The notes under the pieces are model-generated. The model had not been told where the DNA came from. It saw nothing but the letters and a program-made list of their open reading frames with translations, and did no database searches. A stretch of DNA of 64,000 bases, taken from contig JAACZV010000005.1 of assembly GCA_009996515.1 (NCBI GenBank), forward strand, positions 1-64,000, given 5' to 3'. This document shows positions 3,645-56,624 of the stretch, piece by piece; the first letter of the stretch is position 1, and each line of letters begins with the position of its first letter. Position numbers and translations under genes: made by a program. This DNA comes from Comamonadaceae bacterium. Its GTDB lineage: Bacteria > Pseudomonadota > Gammaproteobacteria > Burkholderiales > Burkholderiaceae_C.

Positions 3645-4136
3645 TTAGCGGGCGGTCTCGATCGCCAGGCCGGACAGGAAGCTCTCCCAGGCCGCGGGCT
3701 CGCTGCGCTCCGCCGTCATCAGCGCCTGGTAGACCCGCCCGCCGTGGGCGAACACGGCCAGTTGGGTGACGCCGCCAGCGCCCGCCAGGCGGTATTGGGC
3801 GGCCTCGGGCAACGGCGTCATGCCGGGCACCTGAAGGGCCGCGCCCGGCGGCAGCGCCTGGCCCAGCTTGCCGGCCAGCGCCTGCGGCATGGCGCTCAAA
3901 GCCTGGCCCACTCGCGAGGGGTCGGGCACGTCGGCCCAGGACAGCGCGAAGCGCCGGCCGGCCGTCTCGCATTGCGCCAGCCCCATGCCCTGGCGCTGCT
4001 CGATCTCGGGCTTGCAGGGAAACAGCGCCACGGCGCCCGCGCCCGCCGGCCGCACCTCGCGCCAGTTCAACGCCGGCTGACAGGCGGCCAACAGGCTCAG
4101 CATTAGGGCAAATCCGGCAGTCGTCCTCGGGTGCAT
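3645..4136 (-). CDS. small predicted lipoprotein of unknown function
   Basis: 163 residues with a lipoprotein signal: Met-His-Pro-Arg, a hydrophobic stretch and the lipobox LLAAC. After lipidation it would sit in the inner or outer membrane. The mature part has three further Cys/Trp-containing segments but no motif I can name. It is the first gene of the EIIA-HPr unit. The start at 4136 is supported by the lipobox position and by GATAAT ending 6 nt before the ATG with no Shine-Dalgarno, so the message may be leaderless. It diverges from the CoA-transferase gene 37 nt away. Function unknown. Confidence 0.75.
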   Translation of the reverse strand: MHPRTTAGFALMLSLLAACQPALNWREVRPAGAGAVALFPCKPEIEQRQGMGLAQCETAGRRFALSWADVPDPSRVGQALSAMPQALAGKLGQALPPGAALQVPGMTPLPEAAQYRLAGAGGVTQLAVFAHGGRVYQALMTAERSEPAAWESFLSGLAIETAR

Positions 4137-4142
4137 GGCCGA

Positions 4143-4167
4143 ATTATCGACAGCCGGCCGCGACAAT
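4143..4167. promoter_or_regulatory. divergent -10 elements for the lipoprotein and CoA-transferase genes
   Basis: GATAAT reads on the minus strand at 4148-4143 and GACAAT on the plus strand at 4162-4167. Each ends exactly 6 nt before the ATG it faces (4136 and 4174). Transcription starting 7 nt after each hexamer would begin at the start codon. No convincing -35 boxes or Shine-Dalgarno sequences are visible. Confidence 0.5.
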
Positions 4168-4173
4168 TCCGCG

Positions 4174-5412
4174 ATGCAAGCAAAGCCTCTTCCCCAAGCC
4201 TTGGCAGGCGTGCGCGTGCTGGACCTGTCGCGGGTGCTGGCCGGCCCCTGGTGCACCCAGAACCTGGCCGACCTGGGCGCCGACGTCATCAAGATCGAGC
4301 GTCCCGGCAGCGGCGACGACACGCGGGCCTGGGGCCCGCCCTATCTGAAGGATGCCGACGGCCACGACACCTCCGAAGCCGCCTACTTCCTGGGCGCCAA
4401 CCGCAACAAGCGCTCGCTGGCCGTGGACCTGTCCAGGCCCGAGGGCCAGGCCATCGTGCGCAAGCTGGCGGGCCAAGTGGACGTGCTGGTCGAGAACTTC
4501 AAGGTCGGCGACCTGGCGCGCTACGGGCTGGACGCACAAAGCCTGCTGGCCCAGCACCCCGGACTCGTCATCTGCTCCATCACCGGCTTCGGCCAGACCG
4601 GCCCCTATGCCGAGCGCGCCGGCTACGACTACGCCGTGCAAGGCATGGGCGGGCTGATGAGCGTGACCGGCGAGCGCGACGACCTGCCCGGCGGCGGCCC
4701 GCAGAAGGTGGGCGTGGCGGTGGCCGACCTGTTCACCGGCATGTATGCCACCGTGGCCATCCTGGCCGCGCTGCGCCATCGCGACGCCACCGGCCAGGGC
4801 CAGGTCATCGACATGGCGCTGCTGGACACCCAGCTCGCCATGCTGGCCAACCTGGGCAGCAACTACCTGTGCAGCGGCAAGGCCCCCGGCCGCATGGGCA
4901 ATGCCCACGCCAACATCGTGCCCTACCAGGTGTTCGAAGCCAGCGACGGCCACCTGATCCTGGCCGTCGGCAACGACCGCCAGTTCGCCAAGTTCTGCGA
5001 CATCGCCGGCCGACCGGACTGGGCCGCCGACCCGCGCTTCGCGACCAATGCCGAGCGCGTGCGCCACCGCGCCATCCTCGTGCCGCAGCTGGAAGAAGCC
5101 ATCCGCCAGCGCCCGCGGGCCGACTGGCTGGCGGCGCTGGAGGCGGCCAAGGTGCCCTGCGGCTCCATCAACTCGATTGGGGAGGCGCTCGCCGACCCGC
5201 AGGCGCAAGCTCGCGGCGCCGTGGTCGCCCTGCCCCACCCCCTCTCGCCCGATCTGCGCCTCATCGCCAGCCCCATGAAGCTGTCCGCCACGCCCGTGGC
5301 CTACCGCCACGCACCGCCGCTGTTGGGGCAGCACAGCGACGAGTTGCTGCGCGAAGCCGGCTGTAGCGTGGAGGAAATCACGAATTTGCGCGCAGCAGGC
5401 GTCATTGCGTGA
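4174..5412 (+). CDS. CaiB/BaiF-family (class III) CoA transferase
   Basis: 412 residues, the usual length of class III CoA transferases, which move CoA between carboxylic acids through an aspartyl-CoA intermediate. Family marks include GVRVLDLSRVLAGPWCTQ, LADLGADVIKIERP, a GDDTRAWGPP stretch, NRNKRSLAVDL and VENFKVG, with the region GYDYAVQGMGGLMSVTG. The likely catalytic Asp is in VADLFTGMYA. An upstream ATG at 4135 is in frame, but the protein family starts near MQAKPLP and a -10-like GACAAT stands 6 nt before 4174. Substrate cannot be read from sequence; a short-chain or dicarboxylic acyl-CoA is likely from the family. Confidence 0.92.
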   Translation: MQAKPLPQALAGVRVLDLSRVLAGPWCTQNLADLGADVIKIERPGSGDDTRAWGPPYLKDADGHDTSEAAYFLGANRNKRSLAVDLSRPEGQAIVRKLAGQVDVLVENFKVGDLARYGLDAQSLLAQHPGLVICSITGFGQTGPYAERAGYDYAVQGMGGLMSVTGERDDLPGGGPQKVGVAVADLFTGMYATVAILAALRHRDATGQGQVIDMALLDTQLAMLANLGSNYLCSGKAPGRMGNAHANIVPYQVFEASDGHLILAVGNDRQFAKFCDIAGRPDWAADPRFATNAERVRHRAILVPQLEEAIRQRPRADWLAALEAAKVPCGSINSIGEALADPQAQARGAVVALPHPLSPDLRLIASPMKLSATPVAYRHAPPLLGQHSDELLREAGCSVEEITNLRAAGVIA

Positions 5413-5552
5413 GGACTTACCCACCCCTGAACCAAGGGTTTCCCCCTGGCTGGGGGATGGAGGCAACGGTCGCCTATCCGCAGCATGCGCTCACGCACCG
5501 AGGTGGGCCAACCACCTAGAACCATCCGCCTCGGGTCCGCCACTACCGGGTC

Positions 5553-6701
5553 ATGTCCACGCCGCCCTCTTCAGCGCCAGCCAATGCCGCCAACGATGTC
5601 ACGCCTGAGCCGACGCCGGTCCAGTGGGCGGACATCGTCCAGCAGTTGGGCGCTGAGATCGCCGGGCCGCTGAGCGCAGCGCTGGAGCAGATCCAGAACC
5701 TCGCCACCACGGGCCAGATCGACCGCCGCGGCCTGCGCCTGCTGCGCCGCAGCGTGGACGACGCCCGCACCGCCGGCATGCTGGGTCAGCAACTGGCTCG
5801 CCTGGCCTCAGGCCGCCTGCACCTGCATCGCGAGCGCCAGCACCTGACGCAGATGCTGCGCAGCGTGCTGGCCCAGCGCAGCCGCGAGACCCAGGCGCGC
5901 GGCGTGCAGGTGCGCCAGTCCCTGAAGCCCGTCGAGATCTGGGCCGATGGTGCGCTGCTGTTCGCGCTGCTGAACGCGCTGATGGACTGGGCGCTGGCCA
6001 ACACCCACTCTTCCGTCGACCTGCGCCTGGACCTGACGCCCTGGCCGGTCAAGGCGCGCCTGAGCTGCCGCTTCGCCCATCGCTCGCTGGAGCTGCTGGG
6101 CGGCGACGCCGACCCTCAAGCGCCGACGCCGGGGCTGGATTCGCTGGCCTGGCGTCTGCTGGAGCAGACGGCCATCACGCTGGGCGTGCTGCCGCTGCGC
6201 GAGCAGGAATCGGGCATCACGCTGCTGACGCTGGAGTTCAACCAGCTCGCGCCGGACGAGGCGCCGTCGCCGGACAGCACCCACGCGCGGCTGGAGGCCG
6301 AGGCCGAGCGCATGGGCGGCAACTCGCGCCCGCTGGCCGGCTGCCAGCTGCTCATCCTGTCGGCCAACCGCGAGCTGCGTGCCGAGGCCCAGGCCGCGGT
6401 GCGGCAGATGGGCATGCTGGTGGACGTGGTGGGCAATGTGGCCGAGGCCGATCAGTTCTGCCGCGAAGGCCTGCCCCATGTGCTGCTGTTCGACGCGGCA
6501 CTGACGAGCACACCGCTGCTGCAGCTGATCGCCGGCATACGGCGCGACGCCCCGGATTTCAGCTTCGTCGAGATGTTCGACGGCGAGCACCGCACCCAGC
6601 TGTCCACCGCCACCAGCGATGGCGTGGCCCGCATCTCGCGTCGCCACCTGCCGGACGCCCTGCCCTCGCTGCTGATGTTCGAGCTGGGCCGCGGGGCCTG
6701 A
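5553..6701 (+). CDS. degenerate histidine-kinase-like / pseudo-receiver protein
   Basis: 382 residues, not matched to a named family. Residues about 20-110 look like a helical dimerisation segment (WADIVQQLGAEIAGPLSAAL) where a kinase would have its phospho-acceptor His, but no H-box is present. Residues about 120-240 resemble a HATPase fold (WADGALLFALLNALMDWAL in place of an N-box) without G1/G2 glycine motifs. Residues about 260-380 resemble a response-regulator receiver (LLILSANRELRAEA, then VLLFDAAL with one Asp). It appears to be a two-component hybrid that has lost catalysis, perhaps a scaffold or allosteric regulator. A terminator follows directly, so it is transcribed alone. Assignment by pattern only. 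Confidence 0.5.
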   Translation: MSTPPSSAPANAANDVTPEPTPVQWADIVQQLGAEIAGPLSAALEQIQNLATTGQIDRRGLRLLRRSVDDARTAGMLGQQLARLASGRLHLHRERQHLTQMLRSVLAQRSRETQARGVQVRQSLKPVEIWADGALLFALLNALMDWALANTHSSVDLRLDLTPWPVKARLSCRFAHRSLELLGGDADPQAPTPGLDSLAWRLLEQTAITLGVLPLREQESGITLLTLEFNQLAPDEAPSPDSTHARLEAEAERMGGNSRPLAGCQLLILSANRELRAEAQAAVRQMGMLVDVVGNVAEADQFCREGLPHVLLFDAALTSTPLLQLIAGIRRDAPDFSFVEMFDGEHRTQLSTATSDGVARISRRHLPDALPSLLMFELGRGA

Positions 6702-6710
6702 GGCCCCAGT

Positions 6711-6734
6711 GCCGGGAGGCCATCCCGGCTTTTT
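6711..6734 (+). terminator. Rho-independent terminator
   Basis: A 7-bp GC stem (GCCGGGA / TCCCGGC, loop GGCCA) followed by five T. It lies 10 nt after the kinase-like gene and immediately before the TAGAAT hexamer of the next gene. Confidence 0.75.
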
Positions 6735-6735
6735 C

Positions 6736-6741
6736 TAGAAT
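6736..6741 (+). promoter_or_regulatory. -10 element TAGAAT for the TlpA-like gene
   Basis: TAGAAT ends 7 nt before the ATG at 6749 and follows the upstream terminator by 1 nt. It overlaps an alternative in-frame ATG at 6740, which would be upstream of the transcript. No Shine-Dalgarno follows, so a leaderless message is likely. Confidence 0.5.
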
Positions 6742-6748
6742 GCGCTAC

Positions 6749-7240
6749 ATGCTGTCCCGCCGCACCCTCGCCTCCGCCCTCGCCCTGGTCTGCGCCACCG
6801 CGCTGTCGGGCTGCGCCCGCGAGCAGGCGCCGGCCGTGGACTATGTGCTGCTGGACGGGCAGAAGGCCAGCTCGCAGCAATGGGCCGGCAAGGTCATGCT
6901 GGTGAACTTCTGGGCCACCAGCTGCGCGACCTGCGTGAAGGAAATGCCGCAGATCGTCGCCACCCACGACAAGTTCAAGGCCCGTGGCCTGGACACGCTG
7001 GCCGTGGCCATGAGCTACGACCCGCCGGCCTTCGTCGCCAAGTTCGCCGAAACGCGCAAGCTGCCCTTCGGCGTGGCCATAGACAACACCGGCGCCGTGG
7101 CGAATGCCTTCGGCCCGGTGCAGATGACGCCGACCACCTTCCTCATCAACAAGCGCGGCGAGATCGTCAAGCGCTACGTCGGCGAGCCCGACTTCGACGC
7201 GCTGCACGGTCTCATCGAGAAGCTGCTGGCCGAGGCCTGA
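6749..7240 (+). CDS. TlpA-like thioredoxin-fold lipoprotein (thiol-disulfide oxidoreductase)
   Basis: 163 residues. The N-terminus is a lipoprotein signal (hydrophobic core, lipobox ALSGC), placing the protein on the periplasmic side of a membrane. The mature part is a TlpA/ResA-type thioredoxin fold with the redox motif CATC in FWATSCATCVKEMP and the cis-proline loop MTPTTFLIN. Such proteins reduce disulfides in apocytochrome c or other periplasmic partners. Start 6749 is chosen over 6740 because the -10-like TAGAAT overlaps 6740. It is followed by a DUF1460-type lipoprotein gene. Redox partner not evident from context. Confidence 0.88.
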   Translation: MLSRRTLASALALVCATALSGCAREQAPAVDYVLLDGQKASSQQWAGKVMLVNFWATSCATCVKEMPQIVATHDKFKARGLDTLAVAMSYDPPAFVAKFAETRKLPFGVAIDNTGAVANAFGPVQMTPTTFLINKRGEIVKRYVGEPDFDALHGLIEKLLAEA

Positions 7241-7325
7241 ATCCGCATGCCCGGCGCCGGTCGGGCACTGCCGGACGTTATGGGAGCAGAACAAGCTCTC
7301 ATGCCAGCGCGGGTGCCGCACGGCC

Positions 7326-7331
7326 GACACT
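7326..7331 (+). promoter_or_regulatory. possible -10 element GACACT, 6 nt before the ATG
   Basis: GACACT matches the -10 consensus at positions 2, 4 and 6 only. Its spacing to the ATG at 7338 is identical to the better hexamers elsewhere in this window, and there is no Shine-Dalgarno. Confidence 0.35.
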
Positions 7332-7337
7332 CGCGCG

Positions 7338-8345
7338 ATGCGACTCCAGACCCTGACCTCCCTGGCCGCCGCCACGCTGCTGGCCGCCTGCGCCCACCGC
7401 CCCCTGCCGCCTGAAGCCTCCCAGGCGCCGCGCGTCGAGCCGACCGCCGCGCAGCTGAGCACCGCCGCGCGCGTGGGCCTGCCCGCCACTGAGCTGGCCG
7501 ATCTGCTGAACAAGCCGCTGTACAAGATGCAGCCCGCCGAGGTGGGCCGCTTCCTGGCCTGGCAGCAGCTGGACGAGCCGGACCTGCGCCGCCGCATCGC
7601 CAAGCTCGCGCGCAAGAACATCGGCCAGCCCTACGAGCTCTACCTGCTGGGCGAGTTCCCCTACGAGACCCATGACCCCCAGCCGATGTTCCGCCTGGAC
7701 AAGAGCGACTGCGTCGTGTTCGCGGAGCACACCTACGCGATGGCGCTGTCGGCCTCGTGGGAGGAGTTCTTCTGGGTGCTGCAGCGCATCCGCTACAACG
7801 AGGGCGTCATCGGCGCCGCCACGCGCAATCACTACACGGAAGCCGACTGGAACATCGCCAACCGCTGGCTGGTGACGGACGTGACGCGCACGCTGGGTGC
7901 GCCGGTGCAGGCCTACAAGCAGCGCATCGACCGCCGCGCCTTCCTGAACAAGCAGTTCAAGATCGAGCGCGACATTCCCGTGCAGGAATGGGACGACGCC
8001 TACATCGCCAAGCAGGACGTGGCCGCCATCGAGGCCCAGCTGCAGGACGGCGACTTCGTCAACGTGATCTCCAGGCGCGGCAACGATGCCTGGGCCTCGC
8101 ATGTGGGCCTGATCGTCACCGGCGAGGACGGCTCGCGCCGCATCCTGCACTCGGCCGAGCCGGTCGTGCGCGAGGAGACCGTGCAGGGCTTCATCGCCCG
8201 CATGGCCGAGCGCGACGCGCGCCAGGCCGGTCAGAACAAGGCCCAGTTCGCCGGCCTGAAGTTCCTGCGCCTGAACGATGCGCCTCAGGTGCCGCCGATG
8301 GCGCCCCAGCCGCGCCCCGCGCGGCCGGCGGCCCTCGCGGGTTAA
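7338..8345 (+). CDS. DUF1460-type lipoprotein (N-acetylmuramoyl-L-alanine amidase-like, NlpC/P60-related)
   Basis: 335 residues with a lipoprotein signal ending LLAAC. The body resembles the DUF1460 group, cysteine hydrolases of the NlpC/P60 superfamily thought to act on peptidoglycan fragments. The likely nucleophile Cys is in [12 protein letters not shown], with the catalytic His in WASHVGLI about 140 residues later. [18 protein letters not shown]-like sequence precedes the Cys. The C-terminal tail (about residues 315-335) is Pro/Ala/Arg-rich and probably disordered. It converges on lipA with a 4-nt overlap of the coding ends. Peptidoglycan activity is inferred from the fold. Confidence 0.75.
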
Positions 8346-9304
8346 GCGGTCGGATTCAGCGCCGCGTGGGCCTGCTGGTCCGCGTGGTAGCTGGAGCGCA
8401 CCATCGCGCCCACGGCCGCGTGCGTGAAGCCCAGCTCGTAGGCTTCCTTCTCGAACTGCTTGAAGGCGTCCGGCGTCACATAGCGGCGCACCGGCAGATG
8501 GTGGCCGGACGGGGCCAGGTATTGGCCGATCGTGATCATGTCGATGTCGTGCGCGCGCATGTCGCGCATGACCTGGCGGATCTCGTCGTCGGTCTCGCCC
8601 AGGCCCACCATGATGCCGCTCTTGGTCGGCACGCCCGGCACTTCCTGTTTGAAGCGCTTCAGCAGGTCCAGGCTGAACTGGTAGTCCGAGCCCGGGCGCG
8701 CTTCCTTGTACAGGCGCGGCGCGGTCTCGAGGTTGTGGTTCATCACGTCCGGCGGCGCGGCCTTCAGGATGTTCAGCGCGCGGTCCGCGCGGCCGCGGAA
8801 GTCGGGCACCAGCACCTCGATCTGCGTCGTCGGGCTCAGCTCGCGGACCTTGGTGATGCACTCGGCGAAGTGGCCGGCGCCGCCGTCCTTCAGGTCGTCG
8901 CGGTCCACGCTGGTGATGACCACGTACTTGAGCTTGAGGGCCGCGATGGTCTTGGCCAGGTTCAGCGGCTCGTTGACGTCCAGCGGGTCCGGGCGGCCAT
9001 GGCCCACGTCGCAGAACGGGCAGCGGCGCGTGCACTTGTCACCCATGATCATGAAGGTGGCCGTGCCCTTGCCGAAGCATTCGCCGATGTTGGGGCAGCT
9101 GGCCTCCTCGCAGACCGTGTGCAGCTTGTGCTCGCGCAGGATCTGCTTGATCTCGTAGAAGCGCGTGCTCGGCGAGCCGGCCTTCACGCGGATCCAGTCG
9201 GGCTTCTTCAGCACCTCGGCCGGCACGATCTTGATCGGGATGCGGGAGGTCTTGGCCTCGGCCTTTTGCTTGATCGTCGGGTCGTAGGTGGTCGTATCGG
9301 ACAT
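8342..9304 (-). CDS. lipA: lipoyl synthase
   Basis: A radical-SAM enzyme that inserts two sulfurs into protein-bound octanoyl groups to make lipoamide. The 320-residue product has both required iron-sulfur cysteine sets: the auxiliary cluster [12 protein letters not shown] and the radical-SAM cluster CTRRCPFC. The C-terminal serine that ligates the auxiliary cluster is in MVRSSYHA. It follows lipB by 10 nt on the same strand, giving the classical lipB-lipA order. Confidence 0.98.
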
Positions 9305-9314
9305 GGTCAGGCCG

Positions 9315-9983
9315 TCAAGGCTGAAATTGGGCCGAGAGTCGCTCGGCGAGCCGCCCGGCCGCGGTCGACCAGTCGGTGAAAACCCCGATTTTATCGAGGG
9401 ACGTGGTCTCCAGGCCCTGGTAGCCGCAAGGGTTGATACGGAGGAAGGGCTCGAGGTCCATCGCCACGTTCAGTGCCAGGCCGTGATAGGTGCAGTGGCG
9501 GCTGACCTTGATGCCCAGCGCAGCGATCTTGGCCAGCCCTGCGAAGGCATACGCCGGATCGGCCGGTCCGGCCGGGGCGGCATGGCCGCCCGGGTCCGCC
9601 GGGCGCACATAGATGCCCGGAGCGCCGGCCACGCGCAGGCCGGTCACGCCATAGCTGTCCAGCGTCTGGATGATCGCGGTTTCCAGCCGGAACACGTATT
9701 CCTTGACGAAGATGCCCAGCCGCCGCAGGTCCACCAGCGGATAGGCCGTGACCTGGCCAGGGCCGTGGTAGGTGACCTGCCCGCCACGCTCGGTCGCGAC
9801 GACCGGAATGTCGCCCGGCAGCAGCAGGTGCTCGGGTTTGCCGGCCAGGCCTTGCGTGAAGGTGGGCGGGTGCTCGCACAGCCACAACTCGTCGGGCGTG
9901 CCGGCGTCGCGCACGGCGGTGAAGGCGCGCATGGCCTCCAGCGTGGGCAGGTATTCGACCCGCCCCAGAGTCTTGACGATCAT
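9315..9983 (-). CDS. lipB: octanoyl-[ACP]:protein N-octanoyltransferase
   Basis: LipB moves octanoate from acyl carrier protein to lipoyl domains, the step before LipA. The 222-residue protein shows [18 protein letters not shown], the lysine and cysteine of the acyl-enzyme site in [16 protein letters not shown], and NPCGY. The insertion [16 protein letters not shown] (about residues 130-150) is longer than in most homologues. Start 9983 is chosen over upstream in-frame starts because homology begins at MIVKTLGR and TATGAT ends 6 nt before it. Confidence 0.96.
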
Positions 9984-9989
9984 GCGGGC

Positions 9990-9995
9990 ATCATA
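9990..9995 (-). promoter_or_regulatory. -10 element TATGAT for lipB
   Basis: TATGAT (5 of 6 to consensus) ends exactly 6 nt before the lipB ATG, with GCCCGC between. No Shine-Dalgarno is present, so a leaderless lipB-lipA message is predicted. Confidence 0.55.
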
Positions 9996-10951: not shown

Positions 10952-10961
10952 GGCACTGACC

Positions 10962-12755: not shown

Positions 12756-13078
12756 CGGCCGACGGACTCCGGCAGCACCAGGCGCTCGACGACGCGGCCG
12801 TCGCGCAGATGGCTTTCGACGATCTCGTCGATGTCGCTCTGGTCCACCCAGGAGTACCAGACAGCCTCTGGGTAGACCACCGCGACGGGCCCGCCGGCGC
12901 AGCGGTCCAGGCAGCCGGCCTTGTTGACGCGCACGCCGTCCTTGCCGGCCAGGCCCAGCTGCTTCACGCGGGCCTTGCAGTGGTCGAACGCGCCCTGGGC
13001 GTCATGGTCGCCGCAGCTGGCTTCGCCATTGCTGCGCTGGTTCAGACAGAAGAAAACGTGGCGCTGGTAGTAACTCAT
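12752..13078 (-). CDS. thioredoxin-like [2Fe-2S] ferredoxin
   Basis: 108 residues of the thioredoxin-fold 2Fe-2S ferredoxin family. Four cysteines in the expected order ligate the cluster: HVFFCLNQR, ASCGDHDAQGAF, NKAGCLDRCAGGP. Such proteins are small electron carriers. It lies between the VanZ-like gene (14 nt) and the hydrolase gene (4-nt overlap). A GACAAT hexamer ends 8 nt before the ATG. Confidence 0.88.
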   Translation of the reverse strand: MSYYQRHVFFCLNQRSNGEASCGDHDAQGAFDHCKARVKQLGLAGKDGVRVNKAGCLDRCAGGPVAVVYPEAVWYSWVDQSDIDEIVESHLRDGRVVERLVLPESVGR

Positions 13079-13092
13079 CGCGCGTCATTGTC

Positions 13093-14640: not shown

Positions 14641-14646
14641 ATTATG
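14641..14646 (-). promoter_or_regulatory. -10 element CATAAT for hemJ
   Basis: CATAAT ends exactly 6 nt before the hemJ ATG (spacer GCCGGC). No Shine-Dalgarno is visible, which predicts a leaderless transcript. Confidence 0.5.
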
Positions 14647-18470: not shown

Positions 18471-18571
18471 GATGGGCGGAAAAATGAGTGGACAGGGATT
18501 GTCGCCGCGTGCGCATCGCTGGTGCATTCCCCGGCGCGCGAGGCCCGGGCGCTCCCGCACAATGCCGCCCC

Positions 18572-20662: not shown

Positions 20663-20668
20663 GATAAT
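20663..20668 (+). promoter_or_regulatory. -10 element GATAAT for ruvA
   Basis: GATAAT (5 of 6 to consensus) ends exactly 6 nt before the ruvA ATG (spacer GGGCCG). No ribosome site or LexA box is visible in the gap. Confidence 0.5.
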
Positions 20669-24545: not shown

Positions 24546-24551
24546 ATTGTG
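24546..24551 (-). promoter_or_regulatory. -10-like element CACAAT before the DUF1840 gene
   Basis: CACAAT ends exactly 6 nt before the ATG at 24539 (spacer GCGGCC), with no Shine-Dalgarno. It lies in the gap after the stop of the upstream GGDEF-EAL gene on the same strand. Confidence 0.45.
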
Positions 24552-36432: not shown

Positions 36433-36552
36433 GGGGTACTCCAGGCAGGGTTTCAGTTGGGCCGCACTCTAGGCAGGGTCGATGACGAAAAAAAGCAATA
36501 CTCCGACGAAATCAATTGCTGAATCGACGAATCGTCGCGATGATTTGCCACT

Positions 36553-39967: not shown

Positions 39968-39990
39968 CGGCTGCGCCATACTGCGCCGCC

Positions 39991-40431: not shown

Positions 40432-40437
40432 GACAAT
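40432..40437 (+). promoter_or_regulatory. -10-like element GACAAT for gloA
   Basis: GACAAT ends 7 nt before the gloA ATG at 40445 (spacer GGCGGCC). No Shine-Dalgarno is present. Confidence 0.4.
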
Positions 40438-47583: not shown

Positions 47584-47589
47584 AGTGTA
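47584..47589 (-). promoter_or_regulatory. -10 element TACACT for tsaB
   Basis: TACACT ends exactly 6 nt before the tsaB ATG (spacer GCCTTG) and there is no Shine-Dalgarno. It lies between tsaB and the VOC remnant. Confidence 0.45.
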
Positions 47590-48479: not shown

Positions 48480-50438
48480 CTAGACGCCGCCGTCGCGCTC
48501 GGCCCAGCGGAAGTCGTAGACCGGGCGCACGACATCGTTGACCAGTTCCATCACGGCGCGGTGGCCCTGGGCGAAGGCGGCATTGGTCAGCGAGGTGGCC
48601 GCGGCGTCGGAGTTCGCGATCGCGATGCGGCCGAAGCGCTGGCGGCCCACCACCCAAGGCGCGTCCTGGGCGTCGTACAGCTCGTTGGCGCCGCCGGCAT
48701 AGCCATGGGCCCAGCGGCAGACGGTGATGCCGGCAATGTCGCGCGCCGCGTCGAAACCGCCCGGCCCCAGCATGCGGTTGAGCTGGGAACGGATGTCGCG
48801 CTCCAGCGTCTCGAAGCTCAGCGCCTGCAGCGCCGCGCGCGCCGCCTTCCAGCGCTCGCGCGGCGGCAGGCCGGTGTGGCGCTGCTCCAGCACATGGCGC
48901 GACAGGTTCATGAACAGCACGGCCGGCTCGTCCGGCGTGCGCGCGTTGGCGTAGGCGCCGCCCCACTCCGGCATGGCCCAGGGCGTCGTGAACGCAAACG
49001 GCATGCCGCGGCTGCCTATGCCGTAGACACCCAGCTGGTGGAAGGCGCGCCAGTCGCGGATCGCGACGAAGCTGCGCAGCTGCGCCTTGCGCACCGAGCG
49101 GTGCAACGCCGCCTTCTGCGCCTCGGGCAGCTCGGGCACCAGATAGGGAACCATGGCGTTGAAGCAGGCCATCACGGCGGCGTCGGCGCGCACGCGCTGC
49201 GCCCGACCGCCCCGCACATAGCTGATGTCCACCGCGCGGGCCGCGTCCGGGTCGCCGACATGGGCCGCCCGCACCACCATGCTGGAGAGCCGGATGCGCA
49301 CCTCGTTGCCCGGCTGGTCCAGCCGGTCGTAGCGCAGTGGCGCGCGTATCGAGTCCTCCGCGGTGCTGCCGGGCAGCGAGCCGGGCACCAGGTGGCGGAT
49401 CAGCAGGCGCGCGACGCCGGCATTGCCGTCCGGGAACTGGATCAGCTCGCCCACGTCGGCAACCACGTTGGAGAAGCGCTCCACCTTGGGCAGGCCCAGG
49501 CCGGCAAAGGGCTGGGGGTAGCTGCGCGACGCGGCCCAGGCGCTCAGCGTGTCGAAGCCGGCCGAGCTGTTGTCCATGTCGTTGCCCCAGCCGGCGGCGT
49601 GGTAGGCCACGGCCTCGGGCGGCAGCCTGGCGACGTTCAGCAGGTAGTCGCTGAACGACATCCGGCGCAGCCGGCGGATCTTCTCCTCGACGGCCAGCCC
49701 CGCCAGGTGGTCGGTGGTGTCGGTGAAGTAACGCACCATGCCCGCCTTGACGGCCTCGGGCAGCGGCGTGCCGTCGTAATGGGCACGCAGCTTCTCGGCC
49801 GTGATGCCTCGCATGGACGGGTTCAGCAGCAGCCGGTCGCTGCCGAAGTCCTCACGGTTGTAGAAGGTGCCGGGGCGCAAGCCCGCCGCGGCGAACGGAT
49901 CGCGGTCGGCCGCCGCATGGCGGCGGTAGCGCTCGCGGTCGATGCCGATGTCCGCCAGCATGCGCAGCGACTCGGGCGAGAAGGTGTTGAGGTTCCAGAG
50001 CTCCTGCGTGCCGCCGCAGACCAGCAGCTGCCGGCCGCCGACCTCGAACTCGACGCGGCGCGCATGGCCGCCGAAGTCGTCGCAGCCGTCCAGCAGCAGC
50101 ACCCTGGCGCCCGGCCGCTGCTGGCGGTAGAACCAGGCCGCCGCCAGCCCCGACATGCCGGCGCCGACGACCACCAGGTCATAGTGCTCGCCAGTGTCCG
50201 CCACGGCGCCCAGGCCCAGGCCGTCGCGCACCGCATGGCCGGCCGCCATCGCGGCGTTGTCGAAGCCGCGCAGGCCCTGCTGCCGCGACGGTGCGCCGGC
50301 GTCGGCCGTGGCCGCCCGCGCCACGCCGCCCACCGACAGCGCCGCCGCGCCGGCGGCCATGCCGTCGAGGAAGTCCCGGCGCGAGATCCTGCGGTCCAGC
50401 CCCAAGGCGCGATCGTCGGCGCTGCGCTGTGGTCCCAT
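48480..50438 (-). CDS. Tat-exported flavin amine-oxidase-like protein
   Basis: 652 residues. A twin-arginine signal (RRISRRDFLDGMAAGAAALS) targets it to the periplasm. The FAD-binding start is DLVVVGAGMSGLAAAWFYRQQRPGA with LLLDGCDDFGGHARR, as in the flavin monoamine oxidase/phytoene-desaturase superfamily. A central helical region (FSDYLLNVARLPPEAV) and the C-terminal WAHGYAGGANELYDA segment follow. Substrate is unknown. The ATG follows GGGAGGGA. It diverges from the lactate/malate dehydrogenase-like gene 128 nt away. Confidence 0.85.
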   Translation of the reverse strand: MGPQRSADDRALGLDRRISRRDFLDGMAAGAAALSVGGVARAATADAGAPSRQQGLRGFDNAAMAAGHAVRDGLGLGAVADTGEHYDLVVVGAGMSGLAAAWFYRQQRPGARVLLLDGCDDFGGHARRVEFEVGGRQLLVCGGTQELWNLNTFSPESLRMLADIGIDRERYRRHAAADRDPFAAAGLRPGTFYNREDFGSDRLLLNPSMRGITAEKLRAHYDGTPLPEAVKAGMVRYFTDTTDHLAGLAVEEKIRRLRRMSFSDYLLNVARLPPEAVAYHAAGWGNDMDNSSAGFDTLSAWAASRSYPQPFAGLGLPKVERFSNVVADVGELIQFPDGNAGVARLLIRHLVPGSLPGSTAEDSIRAPLRYDRLDQPGNEVRIRLSSMVVRAAHVGDPDAARAVDISYVRGGRAQRVRADAAVMACFNAMVPYLVPELPEAQKAALHRSVRKAQLRSFVAIRDWRAFHQLGVYGIGSRGMPFAFTTPWAMPEWGGAYANARTPDEPAVLFMNLSRHVLEQRHTGLPPRERWKAARAALQALSFETLERDIRSQLNRMLGPGGFDAARDIAGITVCRWAHGYAGGANELYDAQDAPWVVGRQRFGRIAIANSDAAATSLTNAAFAQGHRAVMELVNDVVRPVYDFRWAERDGGV

Positions 50439-50554
50439 GCGTCCCTCCCGGTGGTGGCGCCCGCAGTGTGCCGCCACGCACCCGTCCAGGCCCCCGCGGA
50501 AACGCCAGGTCGCCACGGCCGCGAACGCGGTACCGAGGCCCGGCATGACGGCGC

Positions 50555-50560
50555 CATACT
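50555..50560 (+). promoter_or_regulatory. -10 element CATACT for the lactate/malate dehydrogenase-like gene
   Basis: CATACT ends exactly 6 nt before the ATG at 50567 (spacer GACGGC), with no Shine-Dalgarno between. Confidence 0.45.
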
Positions 50561-50566
50561 GACGGC

Positions 50567-51484
50567 ATGAAAGCGCGCATCGGCATCATCGGCACCGGCT
50601 GGGTTGGCACCAGCGTGGCCTTCTCCACCCTGCTGGCCGGCCATGCCGGCGAGCTCTGGCTGCACGACCTGCGCGGCGACGTCGCCGAGGGCGAGGCCAT
50701 GGACCTGGCCGACGGCGCGGCCTTCTACCGGCGCTGCGCGGTGCATGCCGTGGCGCTGGAGCAGATGCGCGAGGCCGACATCGTCGTGCTGGCCGCCGGC
50801 CGCAACGGCCGCCCGGACGAGAGCCGGCTGGATCTGCTGCGCGACAACGCCCGCAGCGCCGCCGACATCGGCCGCGTGCTGGCCGGCTTCGGCGGCATCG
50901 TGCTGGTCGTGACCAATCCGGTCGACGTGCTGACCCGCGTCGTCGCCGAGGCCGGCGGCCTGGCGCCGGAACGCGTCATCGGCACCGGCACGCTGCTGGA
51001 CACGGCGCGGCTGCGCGAGCGCCTGGCCGGGCGGCTGGGGCTGTCCACGCAGTCCATCCATGCCCAGGTGGTCGGCGAGCATGGCGACTCGTCGGTGATG
51101 CTGTGGTCGGGCGCCCGCGTCAGCGGCCTGGCGCTGCGCGACTGGCCCGGCTGGCAGGCCGGCGAGGAGCCGGCCCTGGGCCAGCAGGTGCGGCGCGCGG
51201 CCTACGAGGTCATCCAGCGCAAGGGCGCCACCAACCACGCCATCGGCCTGGTGACGGCCGAGTTGATCGGCTGCATCGTCAACGACGAGCACCGGCTGCT
51301 GCCGGTCAGCCGCGTGCAGCAGGGTGCCTGCGGCATCCAGGGCGTGGCGCTGTCGCTGCCGGCCGTGGTGGGCCGGGGCGGTGCGGCCCGGGTCGTCGAG
51401 CCGGCCATGGACGAGGGCGAGCGCGAGGCGCTGATGGCGTCGGCCCGCCTGCTGGGCACCGCCTTCGATGCCTTGAGCGGCTGA
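50567..51484 (+). CDS. L-lactate/malate dehydrogenase family protein with unusual specificity residue
   Basis: 305 residues. NAD-binding start MKARIGIIGTGWVGTSVAFS, VVTNPVDVLT, substrate Arg in GTGTLLDTARLRE and the catalytic His in QVVGEHGDSSVMLWSG are all in place, as in bacterial L-lactate dehydrogenases. The substrate loop reads AAGRNGRPDESRLDLL. At the position that is Gln in lactate and Arg in malate dehydrogenases it has Gly, so it may prefer a bulkier 2-hydroxy acid. It diverges from the Tat flavin oxidase. Confidence 0.88.
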   Translation: MKARIGIIGTGWVGTSVAFSTLLAGHAGELWLHDLRGDVAEGEAMDLADGAAFYRRCAVHAVALEQMREADIVVLAAGRNGRPDESRLDLLRDNARSAADIGRVLAGFGGIVLVVTNPVDVLTRVVAEAGGLAPERVIGTGTLLDTARLRERLAGRLGLSTQSIHAQVVGEHGDSSVMLWSGARVSGLALRDWPGWQAGEEPALGQQVRRAAYEVIQRKGATNHAIGLVTAELIGCIVNDEHRLLPVSRVQQGACGIQGVALSLPAVVGRGGAARVVEPAMDEGEREALMASARLLGTAFDALSG

Positions 51485-51597
51485 TCCGGCCGCGTCCACA
51501 AGCTTGCGGATGGCCGCCCCGGCCAGGACAGCGTCGCGAAGGGGGACCCTTCTAAAAGCCGGAGGTCGAATTCCTCGACACGCCAAAGGAGCCCCTC

Positions 51598-52035
51598 ATG
51601 CAAAGACTGTCACCGACCCTGTTCGCATTGCTGCTGGCCGGCGCTTCGACCCTGGTCTGGGCCCAGGACGCCAAGCCCTACAAGGAAGGCCCCGTCACGG
51701 AGGTCTCCTACATCAAGATCAAGCCCGGCCGCTTCGACGACTACATGCAGTTCCTGGCCACCACCTACCGGGCCAACATGGACGCACAGAAGAAGGCCGG
51801 CCTGATCATGAGCTACAACATCTTCGGCAAGCAGGCCCGCACGCCGCAGGAGCCCGACCTGATCCTGACCGTCACCTACGCCAACATGGCCGCGCTGGAC
51901 CGCATCGACGAGGCCGAGGCGGTGTCGGCCAAGGTGCTGGGCAACAACGCGGCCCAGAACAAGGCCACCATCGAGCGCGGCCCCATGCGTGACGTGCTGG
52001 GCAGCGAGCTGATCCGCGAGCTGGTGCTGAAGTAG
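51598..52035 (+). CDS. secreted protein of unknown function (dimeric alpha/beta-barrel-like)
   Basis: 145 residues with a signal peptide (SPTLFALLLAGASTLVWAQ). The mature part TEVSYIKIKPGRFDDYMQFLATTYRANMDAQKKAG followed by LILTVTYANMAALDRIDEA resembles NIPSNAP/EthD-like dimeric alpha-beta barrels, small exported proteins of unknown role. Strong AAAGGAG ribosome site. Not co-oriented with the genes downstream. Fold assignment is tentative. Confidence 0.72.
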   Translation: MQRLSPTLFALLLAGASTLVWAQDAKPYKEGPVTEVSYIKIKPGRFDDYMQFLATTYRANMDAQKKAGLIMSYNIFGKQARTPQEPDLILTVTYANMAALDRIDEAEAVSAKVLGNNAAQNKATIERGPMRDVLGSELIRELVLK

Positions 52036-52058
52036 CGCGCGGCGGGCGCGCCCGGGCC

Positions 52059-53189
52059 TCAGGCCAGCGCGCGCCCGATCAGGATCTTCTGCACCTCGCT
52101 GGTGCCCTCGTAGATCTGCGTGACGCGCACGTCGCGATAGATGCGCTCCACGGGGAAGTCGCTGAGGTAGCCGTAGCCGCCGTGGATCTGTATGGCCTCG
52201 GAGCAGACGCGCTCGGCCATCTCGCTGGCGAACAGCTTGGCCATGGCGGCCTCCTTCAGGCAGGGCCGGCCGGCGTCCTTCAGGCTGGCGGCATGCCAGA
52301 TCAGCTGGCGCGCGGCCTCGATCTGCGTCGCCATGTCGGCCAGCTTGAACTGCACCGCCTGGTGGTTGAAGATGGGCTGGCCGAAGGTCGAGCGGTCACG
52401 GCTGTAGCGCAGCGCCGCCTCGAAGGCCGCACGCGCCATGCCCACGCTCTGCGACGCGATGCCGATGCGCCCGCCCTCCAGGCCCGACAGCGCGATCTTC
52501 AGGCCCTGGCCCTCCTCGCCCAGCCGGTTGGCGGCCGGCACGCGGCAGTTCTCGAACAGGATCTGGGCCGTGTCGCTGCTGTGCTGGCCCATCTTTTCCT
52601 CGACGCGGGCAACGGTGTAGCCGGGCGTGTCGGTGGGCACGACGAAGGCGCTGATGCCTTTCTTGCCGGCGGACTTGTCCGTCACGGCCATCACGATGGC
52701 GACGTCGCCATGCTTGCCGCTGGTGATGAACTGCTTGACGCCGTTGAGCACGTAGTGGTCGCCGTCGCGCACGGCGGTGGTCTTCAGGCCGCCGGCCTCC
52801 GAGCCGACATGCGGCTCGGTCAGGCAGAACGCGCCCAGCATGTCGCCGCGCGCCAGGGGCTTGAGGAAGCGCTGCTTCTGCTCGTCGTTGGCGAAGGCCA
52901 TCAGGATGGAGCAGACCGGGCAGTTGTTGACGCTGACCACCGTGCTGGTGCCGCCGTCGCCGGCGGCGATCTCCTCCAGGATGACCGACAGCGCCAGGTA
53001 GTCCAGGCCCGCGCCGTCCCATTCGGCGGGCACGGCCACGCCATAGCAGCCCAGCGCGGCCAGGCCCTTGAGCTGCGCGGCGGGGAAGTGATGGGTCTTG
53101 TCCCAGGCGGCGGCGTGGGGCGCGATCTCGGCCTGCACATAGGCGCGGATGGCGTCTTGCACGGCGAGGTGGTCGTCGCTCAAGAGCAT
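52059..53189 (-). CDS. acyl-CoA dehydrogenase (short/medium chain type)
   Basis: 376 residues. FAD enzyme that makes the alpha-beta double bond of acyl-CoA. Signatures are [20 protein letters not shown] and the C-terminal [20 protein letters not shown] with the catalytic Glu in [17 protein letters not shown], as in butyryl-CoA dehydrogenases. It follows the SDR gene on the same strand with an AAGGAGA site. With the acetyl-CoA C-acetyltransferase upstream it belongs to a beta-oxidation or short-chain-acid group. Confidence 0.95.
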
Positions 53190-53222
53190 GGAAATCTCCT
53201 TGTTGGTGCGCAGCCGCCGGCC

Positions 53223-53888
53223 CTACCAGGCCAGGCGCTGCCCGTCGTAGTTGAAGAAGCTGCCCGTGTCCGCCGGCTTCACGCTGGCCAGCACGGTGCG
53301 CATGCCGGCGATGCTGGTGGTCGCGTCGATGTCGGCGCCGGCGCCGCCCATGTCCGTGCGCACCCAGCCCGGGTGGAAGCTGACGACGATGGCCCGGCCG
53401 GCCAGGGCCAGCGCCGCGTCCTTCATCACCGAGTTCACGGCGGCCTTGGACGCGCGATACAGCCAGCCGCTGGCGCTGCCGCGCAGGCCCAGCGAACCCA
53501 TCTTGGACGAGATGATGGCCACGCGCGCGTCCGGCGCCAGCGCCTCGGCGATCTGCGGCAGCACGCGCATGGGACCCAGCACATTGGTGTGCATGACGGC
53601 GTCGAAGTCGGCCTCGGTCGGCGCCTCCAGGCCGGTGGTGCGGGGCCCGTACAGGCCGGCGTTGATGACGACCACGTCGAAGCGCTCGCCGTCGATCAGC
53701 CAGGCCAGGCCCGACACGCTGGCCGCGCTCGCCACGTCCAGCTTCAGCGCGCGGGCGCCATGGGCCTGCAGCCGCTCCAGCGCGGCCTCATCGCGCGCCG
53801 TGGCCGTGATGCGGGCGCCGGCGGCGCGGTACTGCCGGACGAACTCCAGGCCCAGGCCGCGCGAGGCGCCGATGATGAGGACATTCAT
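53223..53888 (-). CDS. short-chain dehydrogenase/reductase
   Basis: 221 residues of the classical SDR fold. NAD(P) motif MNVLIIGASRGLGLEF, NAG in VVVINAGLYGP, catalytic Ser in VAIISSKMGS, YRASK, and HPGWVRTDMGG. Some relatives are C-factor-like. It overlaps the LysE gene upstream by 4 nt (ATGA). Substrate unknown; context points to an acyl-CoA or carbonyl substrate. Confidence 0.92.
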   Translation of the reverse strand: MNVLIIGASRGLGLEFVRQYRAAGARITATARDEAALERLQAHGARALKLDVASAASVSGLAWLIDGERFDVVVINAGLYGPRTTGLEAPTEADFDAVMHTNVLGPMRVLPQIAEALAPDARVAIISSKMGSLGLRGSASGWLYRASKAAVNSVMKDAALALAGRAIVVSFHPGWVRTDMGGAGADIDATTSIAGMRTVLASVKPADTGSFFNYDGQRLAW

Positions 53889-54514
53889 GGTTGGGTGAAG
53901 GCGAGTTTGGCGGCCAGCACGGTGAACAGGCCGGCGCCGCCGAGGTTGAGGCCGCGCCCCAGCCAGGGCCGCGGCCGGCCGCGGCGCAGCGGCGCGACCA
54001 GGGCGATCAGCACCAGCAGGAACAGCAGCCCCTGCACGATGAACCAGGCACCGAGGAACAGAAAGGCCAGCGTCTTGTCGGGCGCCGCGGCGGCGATGAA
54101 CTGCGGTAGCAGCGCGAGGAAGAACAGCGCCACCTTGGGATTCAGCGCATTCGTGAAGAAGCCCTGGCGGGCCGTGCGCCACAGCGATTGCGGTGCCGTC
54201 ACCGCCACGTCGGCCGGGGCCGGGCGCAGGCCCGCCTTGGCCATGCCCCAGGCCACGTAGAGCAGATAGGCGGCGCCCACCAGCTTGACCACGGTGAAGG
54301 CCTGGGCCGACGCGGCCAGCAGCGCCGCCAGGCCGAAGGCCGCGGCCAGCGTGTGCAGCACGCAACCGGCCATGATGCCCAGCGCCGCCGCCACGCCCTG
54401 GCGCCAGCCGCCGCGCAGCGTGCTGGCGACGGTGTAGGCCATGTCCACGCCGGGCGTCGCGTTCAGCACGAAGACGGTGGCGGCGAACAGCGCCAGGTCG
54501 TGGACGCCCAGCAC
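53885..54514 (-). CDS. LysE/RhtB-family amino-acid exporter
   Basis: 209 residues, about six membrane helices. Family marks are the N-terminal LFAATVFVLNATPGVDMAYTVASTLRGGWRQGVAAALG and VVKLVGAAYLLYVAWGMAK. The start is GTG, 3 nt after the thiolase stop. It exports amino acids or related compounds; substrate unknown. Lies between thiolase and SDR in the same unit. Confidence 0.93.
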   Translation of the reverse strand: MLGVHDLALFAATVFVLNATPGVDMAYTVASTLRGGWRQGVAAALGIMAGCVLHTLAAAFGLAALLAASAQAFTVVKLVGAAYLLYVAWGMAKAGLRPAPADVAVTAPQSLWRTARQGFFTNALNPKVALFFLALLPQFIAAAAPDKTLAFLFLGAWFIVQGLLFLLVLIALVAPLRRGRPRPWLGRGLNLGGAGLFTVLAAKLAFTQP

Positions 54515-54517
54515 GGC

Positions 54518-55696
54518 TTAGAGCAGTTCGACGGCCATCGCCGTGGCCTCGCCGCCGCCGATGCACAGCGCGGCCATGCCCTTCTTCAGGCCGCGCTTCT
54601 TCAGCGCGCCCAGCAGCGTGACGACGATGCGCGCACCGCTGGCGCCGATGGGGTGGCCCAGCGCCACGGCGCCGCCGTGCACGTTGACGATGTCGTGCGG
54701 CAGCTTGAACTCGGCCATGGCCGCCATCGTGACGGCGGCAAAGGCCTCGTTGACCTCCCACAGGTCCACGTCGCCGGCCTGCCAGCCGGCCTTGGCCAGC
54801 GCCTTCTGGATGGCGCCCACCGGCGCGGTGGTGAACCAGTCGGGCGCCTGCGCATGCACCGCATGGCTGACGATGCGGGCGATGGGGGTCAGGCCGCGCG
54901 CCTTGGCCGTGCTCTCGCGCATCAGCACCAGCGCCGCGGCGCCGTCGGAGATGCTGGACGAGGTGGCGGCGGTGATGGCGCCGTCCTTCTTGAACGCGGG
55001 CTTGAGCGTCGGGATCTTGTCGAGCTTGGCCTTGAAGGGCTGCTCGTCGAACTTGATGACGGTGTCGCCCTTGGGGCTGGACAGCGTCACCGGGGCCATC
55101 TCCCAGTCGAAGCTGCCGTCTTCATTGGCGGCCTTGGCACGCTGGGTGGACGAGATCGCGTACTGGTCCATGGCCTCGCGGCTGAAGGCGTACTTGGACA
55201 CGCATTGCTCGGCGAACACGCCCATGGCCTTGCCGCGCTCGTAGGCATCCTCCAGGCCGTCCAGCGCCATGTGGTCGTAGACGGCGCTAGCGCCGTACTT
55301 GATGCCCTTGCGCGCGAACATCAGGTGCGGCGCATTGGTCATGCTCTCCATGCCGCCGGCCACCATGATCTCGGCCGAGCCGGCCGCCAGCATGTCGTGG
55401 GCAAACATCATGGTGCGCATGCCGGAGCCGCACATCTTGCTCAGCGTGACGGCGCCGGCCGAGTCGGGCAGGCCAGCCTTGCGCAGCGCCTGGCGCGCCG
55501 GGGCCTGGCCCTGGCCGGCCATCAGGCAGCAGCCCATCAGCACCTCGTCGATGGCGTCGCCCGGCACGCCGGCGCGCTCCACGGCGGCCTTGATGGCGAC
55601 CGCACCCAGCTCCCAGCCCGCGAGGCCGGCGAAATCACCCAGCAGGCCGCCTATGGGCGTGCGGGCGGCGGAAACGATGACGATGGCGTCGGACAT
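54518..55696 (-). CDS. acetyl-CoA C-acetyltransferase (thiolase)
   Basis: 392 residues. The acyl-accepting Cys is in LSKMCGSGMRTMMFAHD, with NVHGGAVALGHPIGASGAR and the C-terminal Cys in MAALCIGGGEATAMAVELL, as in biosynthetic or degradative acetoacetyl-CoA thiolases (AtoB/PhaA). Ribosome site CAGGAGAG. Followed by LysE, SDR and acyl-CoA dehydrogenase genes. Either ketone-body/short-chain acid degradation or polyhydroxybutyrate precursor supply is possible; no phaB or phaC is present here. Confidence 0.95.
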   Translation of the reverse strand: MSDAIVIVSAARTPIGGLLGDFAGLAGWELGAVAIKAAVERAGVPGDAIDEVLMGCCLMAGQGQAPARQALRKAGLPDSAGAVTLSKMCGSGMRTMMFAHDMLAAGSAEIMVAGGMESMTNAPHLMFARKGIKYGASAVYDHMALDGLEDAYERGKAMGVFAEQCVSKYAFSREAMDQYAISSTQRAKAANEDGSFDWEMAPVTLSSPKGDTVIKFDEQPFKAKLDKIPTLKPAFKKDGAITAATSSSISDGAAALVLMRESTAKARGLTPIARIVSHAVHAQAPDWFTTAPVGAIQKALAKAGWQAGDVDLWEVNEAFAAVTMAAMAEFKLPHDIVNVHGGAVALGHPIGASGARIVVTLLGALKKRGLKKGMAALCIGGGEATAMAVELL

Positions 55697-55759
55697 GGGG
55701 CTCTCCTGAAATGAAGCAACGGGATGCCGGCATTGTCGGTCTTTTGGTTGACGTTTACG

Positions 55760-56611
55760 TCAACCGCGCCAAAGCCGGTAGGCCCAGAAGGCCGGGTCCG
55801 TCGCGATGCGGCGGCGCAGCTCCTCGGGGCTGAAGCCGGTGAGCCGGCGCGTCTCGCGGCACAGGTGGCTCTGGTCGGCATAGTCGGTCTCGGCCGCGAT
55901 GTCGGCCCAGCTGAAGCCGGGCCGGCCCTCGGCGGCCGCCACCGCATAGAAGGCGGCCTCGGCGCGCGACACCGCGCGCAGCTCGCGCAGCGGCAGGCCG
56001 GCCCAGCGCTTGATGCGCCGCTCCAGCTGGCGCAGGCTGCGCCCGGCCGCGCTGGTGGCGGCGCGCACGGCCAGGGCCTCGCTCCAGTCGGCATAGCGGC
56101 CGCTGGGCCGCTGCGCACCCAGCGCCTGCCAGCGCGGCTGCAGAAAGGCCTGGACGGCGGCCAGCTGCGCCGCCTCGCCGTCCAGTTGCCGCACCGACTC
56201 GGCCCAGTCGCGCCAGTCGGCCGGCAGCACCGCGGCGGCGTCGCCCGCGCGGTTGCGCCAGGCCGCCGGGTCTATGCCGGTCAGCGCGCGCAGCGCGTCC
56301 GGCAGGAACAGCAGCACCAGGCCGCGCTCCTCGCCGCGGCTGCGCATATGGGTGGGCTGGGTGAAGGGCCCGGCCAGCAGCAGCGGCGCCGGCGCATAGC
56401 CGGGCGGCGGCACCGAGAACCCGGGCGTGGCCAGCCACTGCGCGTCGCTGCTGGCCAGCAGGTACAGCGACATCAGCGGCGTGGCCGGCAGGAAGCTGTC
56501 CAGCGCCGCGCCCTGCAGGCCCAGGCCGCGGGTGTCGCGCAGCAGCACGCCGCGCAGACAGCCGGCCAGCGACAGCGGCGGCAGCCAGAGGCGGGCGGAA
56601 GGCTCTTGCAT
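55760..56611 (-). CDS. AraC-type transcriptional regulator
   Basis: 283 residues. The N-terminal half is the DUF6597-like sensor seen in many AraC proteins. The C-terminal helix-turn-helix pair reads GFSWADIAAETDYADQSHLCRETRRLTGFSPEELRRRI. The start has GACACT ending 7 nt upstream. It is divergent from the cytochrome P450 gene 59 nt away, and the thiolase gene lies downstream, so it may control either one. Confidence 0.9.
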   Translation of the reverse strand: MQEPSARLWLPPLSLAGCLRGVLLRDTRGLGLQGAALDSFLPATPLMSLYLLASSDAQWLATPGFSVPPPGYAPAPLLLAGPFTQPTHMRSRGEERGLVLLFLPDALRALTGIDPAAWRNRAGDAAAVLPADWRDWAESVRQLDGEAAQLAAVQAFLQPRWQALGAQRPSGRYADWSEALAVRAATSAAGRSLRQLERRIKRWAGLPLRELRAVSRAEAAFYAVAAAEGRPGFSWADIAAETDYADQSHLCRETRRLTGFSPEELRRRIATDPAFWAYRLWRG

Positions 56612-56618
56612 GCGGATC

Positions 56619-56624
56619 AGTGTC
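56619..56624 (-). promoter_or_regulatory. -10-like element GACACT for the AraC-type gene
   Basis: GACACT ends 7 nt before the ATG at 56611 with no Shine-Dalgarno. It lies in the 59-nt gap shared with the cytochrome P450 gene. Confidence 0.35.

Follow-up and report, generated by a model that had tools for sequence, protein, structure and literature searches.

A stretch of 64,000 nucleotides from a Roseateles-like member of the Burkholderiales, referred to here as the window, contains 16 genes in which a hexamer resembling a −10 promoter box lies directly ahead of the ATG. We conclude that these hexamers are very probably −10 boxes giving leaderless mRNAs, an arrangement that would apply to about 6.5–8% of the genes. 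A sigma-70-type −10 box would set RNA polymerase to start at the first base of the ATG or within about 2 bases of it; the resulting mRNA would have neither a 5′ leader nor a Shine-Dalgarno sequence and would be translated by the leaderless route, in which a 5′-terminal AUG is bound by the ribosome together with initiator tRNA. A preliminary description of the window had raised this interpretation, and it gained support from the enrichment of the hexamers, their TATAAT base order, Shine-Dalgarno motifs at chance level, divergent neighbouring genes and hexamers that follow displaced start codons. Promoter activity, exact 5′ ends and mode of translation are predictions drawn from the sequence.

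The genome holding the window comprises 4.58 Mb in 48 contigs, one of which begins with the window (GC content 70.6%). Its RuvA protein shares 95% identity with those of Pelomonas aquatica and of Roseateles saccharophilus, the closest named relatives.

Hexamers and start codons in the window

All 16 hexamers were found where the preliminary description had placed them, nine of them 6 nt ahead of the ATG, three at 7 nt and four at 8 nt (the distance d is the number of nucleotides separating the hexamer end from the start codon). The further claim that Shine-Dalgarno sequences are lacking was borne out, with a Shine-Dalgarno 4-mer (AGGA, GGAG, GAGG or AAGG in −18 to −4) in 0/16 starts. A spacing of "exactly 6 nt", in contrast, held only as the mode, the real range being 5–8 nt. 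The first position of the hexamer is loose, and 13 of the 16 begin with G or C rather than T. Half of the start codons (8/16) agree with those of a gene caller that takes GC by codon position for its seeds and chooses starts by coding potential and start-codon type, blind to the upstream sequence; it placed the other eight 3 to 16 codons away, its starts being rough.

One alternative is chance combined with choice, in which loose hexamers were picked afterwards and start codons fitted to them. The mask N-A-N-N-N-T is indeed loose. Among 64 of the 65 called starts in the window it yields 5 matches at d=6, 6 at d=8 and just as many (6) at d=27, against a mean of 1.66 over d=10–44; the tighter mask [CGT]A[CT][AG][ACG]T gives 5, 3 and 4, respectively. 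Together with the eight differing start calls, these counts make the mask weak evidence in the window by itself, not decisive, and the hexamer was therefore tested on sequence that had not been seen when the preliminary description was made.

Enrichment outside the window

For this purpose we relied on 800 kb of sequence from elsewhere in this genome (a 17% sample with 722 called genes); a 464-kb set containing the window was set aside. With starts having less than 60 nt upstream omitted, 563 of 571 ATG starts were retained. At a score of at least 5, the hexamer precedes 30, 19 and 12 of these starts at d=6, 7 and 8, whereas spacings of d=10–44 average 4.6 each (score backgrounds vary slightly between tests, such that CACAAT and GACAAT score 5.24 or 4.97). 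The excess of about 47 hexamer starts corresponds to 8% when set against the 563 ATG starts and to 6.5% when set against all 722 genes. When annotation was left aside, ATG followed a hexamer of score 7 at d=6, 7 and 8 in 27, 17 and 11 cases; for GTG, TTG and CTG, the counts at d=6 were 4, 5 and 5.

We had also argued for a promoter form from the A and T at positions 2 and 6 of the hexamers; this was dropped as circular, the sets having been chosen by that very score, and was replaced by a control in which the motif columns were scrambled. Across the same 563 starts, none of the 684 column orders that do not spell TATAAT reached the 61 sites found at d=6–8; the best gave 38 and the median was 16, with about 13 expected from the flanks. 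The scrambling retains the A/T richness of the motif and thereby bears on a second alternative, namely that the hexamer acts within the mRNA leader as an A/U-rich element, e.g. a site for ribosomal protein S1, which aids translation of transcripts begun further upstream. Such an element would suit a hexamer that adjoins the start of genes without Shine-Dalgarno motifs. However, the TATAAT order is needed, and equally A/T-rich orders stay close to the flank expectation. Since a promoter is also needed where upstream neighbours are divergent, and such neighbours are more frequent ahead of hexamer genes (see below), we regard a leader element as very unlikely.

In the whole genome, TATAAT-N6-ATG with at most one mismatch occurs 46 times, including 4 times in the window, versus 6 times for the reversed pattern, and the ATG is intact in 40 of the 46 matches. 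An order-wide survey of 300 rows gave the pattern in excess of its reversed control in 9/9 rows of the window's family, the only rows tallied. What we find is thus a positionally clustered, TANNNT-like hexamer about 12 bp ahead of the start, and its resemblance to the sigma-70 −10 hexamer TATAAT is apparent from both the enrichment and the scrambled-motif control. The earlier statements that AT-rich hexamers at such spacing are unlikely by chance, and that they should show positional enrichment genome-wide, withstood these checks (the latter on the 17% sample and by the whole-genome pattern search). The term "widespread" here amounts to roughly 6.5–8% of genes. For the set as a whole, chance with choice is contradicted by the 800 kb with blind starts, the scrambled control, the whole-genome pattern and the orthologs described below, and we consider it extremely improbable; single weak sites could still be due to chance.

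Shine-Dalgarno motifs and neighbouring genes

With starts having less than 80 nt upstream omitted, a Shine-Dalgarno 4-mer was present in 6 of the 61 sampled hexamer genes, i.e. at the chance level given by shuffling (6.55), while it occurred in 250 of 633 other genes, far above the shuffled value of 93.5. The sample thereby repeats the absence of Shine-Dalgarno motifs seen at the 16 starts of the window. The upstream neighbour is divergent for 36/58 hexamer genes compared to 160/613 others; conversely, a same-strand gene lies at most 30 nt upstream of 10/58 hexamer genes versus 233/613 others. This pattern of neighbours and Shine-Dalgarno motifs is what should be seen for the first genes of transcripts.

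Conservation in related genomes

The preliminary description had proposed a comparison with related genomes. Among same-genus orthologous starts of the 16 genes, the hexamer was kept 5–8 nt before the ATG in 126/129, 113 of them at a score of at least 5. Bands of equal width further upstream gave 17, 6, 38 and 10 (1, 1, 15 and 0 at score 5), and 31 of the 38 matches in the richest band come from the divergent gene pair at 4136 and 4174, in which each box falls in the other's band. Orthologs were required to show at least 60% identity and a match beginning within 14 residues; the ATG nearest the aligned start was used, with d=4–9 and a score of at least 2. Identical upstream stretches were counted once, and the up to 18 related genomes behind the 129 starts are not independent. 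For 116 of the 129 orthologs, the ATG matches the aligned position. One comparison covers up to 25 rows per gene, its counts holding among the matches listed.

Wider relatives offer start codons that have moved. For hemJ, the hexamer is found at 5–8 nt in 27/27 relatives; in 12 of them the ATG is displaced upstream by 2–4 codons, with the hexamer shifted along in all 12. For the gene starting at 13078, 21/23 relatives have the hexamer at 5–8 nt, including 6/6 with displaced starts (matches beginning within 12 residues, scanned at d=3–11). This tracking of the displaced start codon is the strongest single argument for hexamers acting as leaderless −10 boxes, because a compositional cause would not be expected to follow the start codon. 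In addition, at 45 hand-listed loci of the clade, ATG occurs 14, 41, 9 and 8 times at d=5–8 and mostly 2–7 times elsewhere, with single spacings up to 9; this profile omits ATG followed by ATC, ATT, ATA or CTC, as in starts of the ruvA or hemJ kind.

Opposing evidence and the −35 region

Several observations weigh against leaderless transcription from these hexamers. Three of the window hexamers (those before 7338, 36553 and 56611) score below 5 in every ortholog seen. Chance alone would account for about 18 of the 61 sampled genes with a hexamer (four spacings at 4.6). The association with ATG is not strict, as 100 GTG starts have the hexamer 4 times at d=6 and twice at d=7. At 35 loci of relatives, mostly outside the clade although including four clade members (L070, L075, L083 and L099), no clear peak was seen by the same profile, with ATG counts of 39, 36, 47 and 46 at d=6–9 and values mostly of 25–40. 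A C at −1 is found in a fraction of 0.72 of hexamer genes versus 0.66 of other ATG genes and gives no support for a start site; being nearly as common in the other genes, it was dropped as an initiator-like feature. Finally, no −35 enrichment was detectable for the candidates of the window's own genome, and ten of the 58 hexamer genes stand close behind a same-strand gene.

The last point would be accommodated if the hexamers were real promoters but most expression of the genes came from other start sites with a leader, leaving the leaderless form minor, and several start sites per gene are reported for Cupriavidus (PMC7563307). Against this, Shine-Dalgarno motifs are not above chance in the hexamer genes, and the spacing is kept when the ATG moves; we thus consider predominantly leadered expression unlikely and favour the hexamers as −10 boxes of leaderless mRNAs.

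With regard to the −35 region, a sigma-70 promoter would be expected to carry a TTGACA-like hexamer 16–18 nt ahead of the −10 box, unless an extended −10 takes its place. TTG at a distance of 16, 17 or 18 occurs in 0, 1 and 0 of 39 leaderless hexamers of the own genome versus 10, 8 and 7 of 221 leadered ones, and an extended −10 TG is present in 0/39 candidates. After addition of relatives (63 of 80 loci kept, with GC of at least 62% and more than 4 kb), the numbers are 1, 2 and 0 of 167 leaderless and 12, 9 and 16 of 427 leadered sites; the leadered sites are equally rich in TTG at 20 and 21 (12 and 12), and the 167 leaderless sites hold many ruvA and hemJ orthologs. Both pairs of sets include the window. 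Across 150 genomes of the family, TTGA was found 58 times on and 66 times off the spacing for leaderless sites versus 437 on and 341 off for leadered ones, a contrast that is not significant (Fisher p 0.053); omitting three AT-rich genomes gives 51:46 and 353:234 (p 0.18). Among the 58 and 66 places, the complete TTGACA occurs 12 times on versus once off the spacing and TTGAC 27 versus 14 times (letters read by hand), with no TTGACA in genomes G000 and G311. Because of this excess of TTGACA, some of the family's leaderless promoters appear to have a −35 box. A class of promoters consisting of a −10 box only had been entertained and was dropped, as the same 12 versus 1 speaks against such a rule in the family.

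Changes of box position in ruvA and DUF1840

Two genes differ between lineages. For ruvA, a leaderless-like arrangement is seen in 39 of 81 rows. Of these, 35 belong to a clade of 50 rows that are mostly Sphaerotilaceae, 3 to a fork of 23 rows that are mostly Comamonadaceae, and 1 falls elsewhere. One of the three fork rows is an edge case, L087 being labelled leaderless only via a 9-nt edge, and rows L032, L051 and L056 fall just below the score line. On the 81-row tree, the label changes 14 times compared to 27.2 times when shuffled (0/500 shuffles as low), and 5 of the 14 changes are forced by strongly supported branches. Several ruvA genes of Ramlibacter, Comamonas and Rhodoferax have GATAAT 18–44 nt upstream instead, four rows also with a Shine-Dalgarno 4-mer. 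For DUF1840, CACAAT is at 5–8 nt in 6/27 relatives and only further upstream (9–79 nt) in 16/27, 10 of these 16 with a Shine-Dalgarno 4-mer; the reversed CACAAT was found in 0/27.

In both genes, the distance to the ATG changes, whereas the box itself seems to persist. We lean slightly towards the view that individual housekeeping genes have, on more than one occasion, changed between leaderless and leadered, Shine-Dalgarno-type starts, using the same hexamer and changing the distance between box and ATG alone, such that promoter position and translation mode would co-evolve.

Six ruvA loci, namely L082 (a Polaromonas metagenome-assembled genome), L087, L097 and L103 (Rhodoferax) and L084 and L093 (uncultured beta-proteobacteria), contain a five-codon frame MIGRK, MIGKK or MIGNK followed by TGA. 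It starts 14 nt ahead of the ruvA start, its stop overlaps the ruvA ATG and it resembles the first residues of RuvA, possibly representing a duplicated start with translational coupling. Rows L058 and L078, read out at wrong positions, were left out of this comparison.

The individual hexamers and their surroundings

Pfam agrees with the gene names of the preliminary description where a family exists (CoA-transferase III, AmiA-like, lipoyl ligase, UPF0093, RuvA, DUF1840, TsaD and lactate/malate dehydrogenase); at 1e-5, the proteins starting at 4136 and 13078 match no Pfam family. The fractions below give the same-genus orthologs that kept the hexamer.

Nine hexamers lie 6 nt before the ATG. 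GATAAT (4143..4148, − strand; 16/16) precedes ATG 4136 of a gene described earlier as a lipoprotein, and GACAAT (4162..4167, +; 15/16) precedes ATG 4174 of a CoA-transferase family III gene; only 37 bp separate these two divergent, leaderless-type starts, whose hexamers are kept in the same 16/16 and 15/16 rows. In nine other same-genus genomes, a contig likewise starts about 4.2–4.4 kb ahead of the CoA-transferase gene, and the contig start in the window genome and these relatives is probably preceded directly by a repeat, e.g. an rRNA operon. The weak GACACT (7326..7331, +) stands before ATG 7338 of an AmiA-like gene (DUF1460 in the preliminary description); it is present in 4/4 orthologs at the low threshold and 0/4 at score 5, and the relatives' ATG is one codon later. 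TATGAT (9990..9995, −; 16/18) precedes ATG 9983 of lipB. Upstream of lipB, CTTAC occurs shortly ahead of the −10 box in 15 of the 18 same-genus rows listed (L186–L203), the window itself being without it, and may be a candidate regulator site. CATAAT (14641..14646, −; 5/5) precedes ATG 14634 of hemJ (UPF0093).

Rfam at gathering thresholds gives two matches in the window, neither at any hexamer. One is the anti-hemB RNA RF02837 (14705–14793, −), situated between hemJ (14634, −) and hemB (14937, +; ALAD by Pfam), on the same strand as hemJ and upstream of its start; the other is a tRNA gene, RF00005 (33680–33761, −).

The remaining hexamers at 6 nt are GATAAT (20663..20668, +; 5/5) before ATG 20675 of ruvA, CACAAT (24546..24551, −; 5/5) before ATG 24539 of the DUF1840 gene, TACACT (47584..47589, −; 17/17) before ATG 47577 of a gene described as tsaB and assigned by Pfam to the TsaD family, and CATACT (50555..50560, +; 3/3) before ATG 50567 of a lactate/malate dehydrogenase-like gene. 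At 7 nt, TAGAAT (6736..6741, +; 15/15) precedes ATG 6749 of a redoxin-like gene, GACAAT (40432..40437, +; 5/5) precedes ATG 40445 of a glyoxalase gene, and the weak GACACT (56619..56624, −) precedes ATG 56611 of an AraC-type regulator, with 4/4 orthologs at the low threshold and 0/4 at score 5. At 8 nt are GACAAT (13087..13092, −; 5/5) before ATG 13078, CACAAT (18558..18563, +; 5/5) before ATG 18572 of a histidine-kinase-like ATPase gene, CATACT (39977..39982, +; 1/1, the sole ortholog) before ATG 39991 of a DUF6970 gene, and the weak GATGAT (36539..36544, +) before ATG 36553 of an Lrp/AsnC regulator (5/5 at the low threshold, 0/5 at score 5). The last is among the least certain because it lies within a longer conserved block, TCGTCGCGATGATT (36532–36545), which adjoins the regulator upstream, is identical in 5/5 relatives listed and is perhaps a candidate binding site in its own right.

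Comparison with known leaderless genes

We know of no report on leaderless genes in Roseateles, although the literature searches made do not establish that none exists. Extrapolated from the sample, perhaps 250–300 genes would be concerned, allowing better annotation of start codons and promoters in Roseateles and its kin, where motif searches for Shine-Dalgarno sequences only would miss such starts. The hemJ, ruvA and DUF1840 families provide a ready natural series for testing moves between leaderless and leadered states.

Zheng et al. 2011 describe TA-led genes with a TANNNT-like signal about 12 bp upstream that was read as a leaderless −10 box, and report them for 9/71 beta-proteobacterial genomes with a mean of 6.8% of genes (2.8–10.6%) (PMC3160421). 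Signal and reading are the same in our case, and the mean is close to the 6.5–8% found here; different are the ortholog and start-displacement tests in Roseateles and the many hexamers beginning with G or C. In Burkholderia cenocepacia J2315, a member of the same order, Sass et al. 2015 mapped primary start sites at the start codon for 72 genes and at most 10 nt away for 42 more; 24 of these leaderless-type transcripts are tRNAs, and a TA-rich promoter motif lies directly upstream (PMC4603805). The TA-rich motif is shared, whereas the starts were measured there by differential RNA sequencing and are predicted here from sequence alone. In Cupriavidus metallidurans CH34, 4.67% of the primary start sites give leaders shorter than 5 nt (PMC7563307); leaderless starts are again common to both, although measured there, in another genus and for another gene set. 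Leaderless starts of this sort are uncommon but already described, and the Roseateles case adds to a known phenomenon by its conservation tests and by ruvA and DUF1840, which differ between lineages in having the box at the ATG or further upstream with a Shine-Dalgarno motif.

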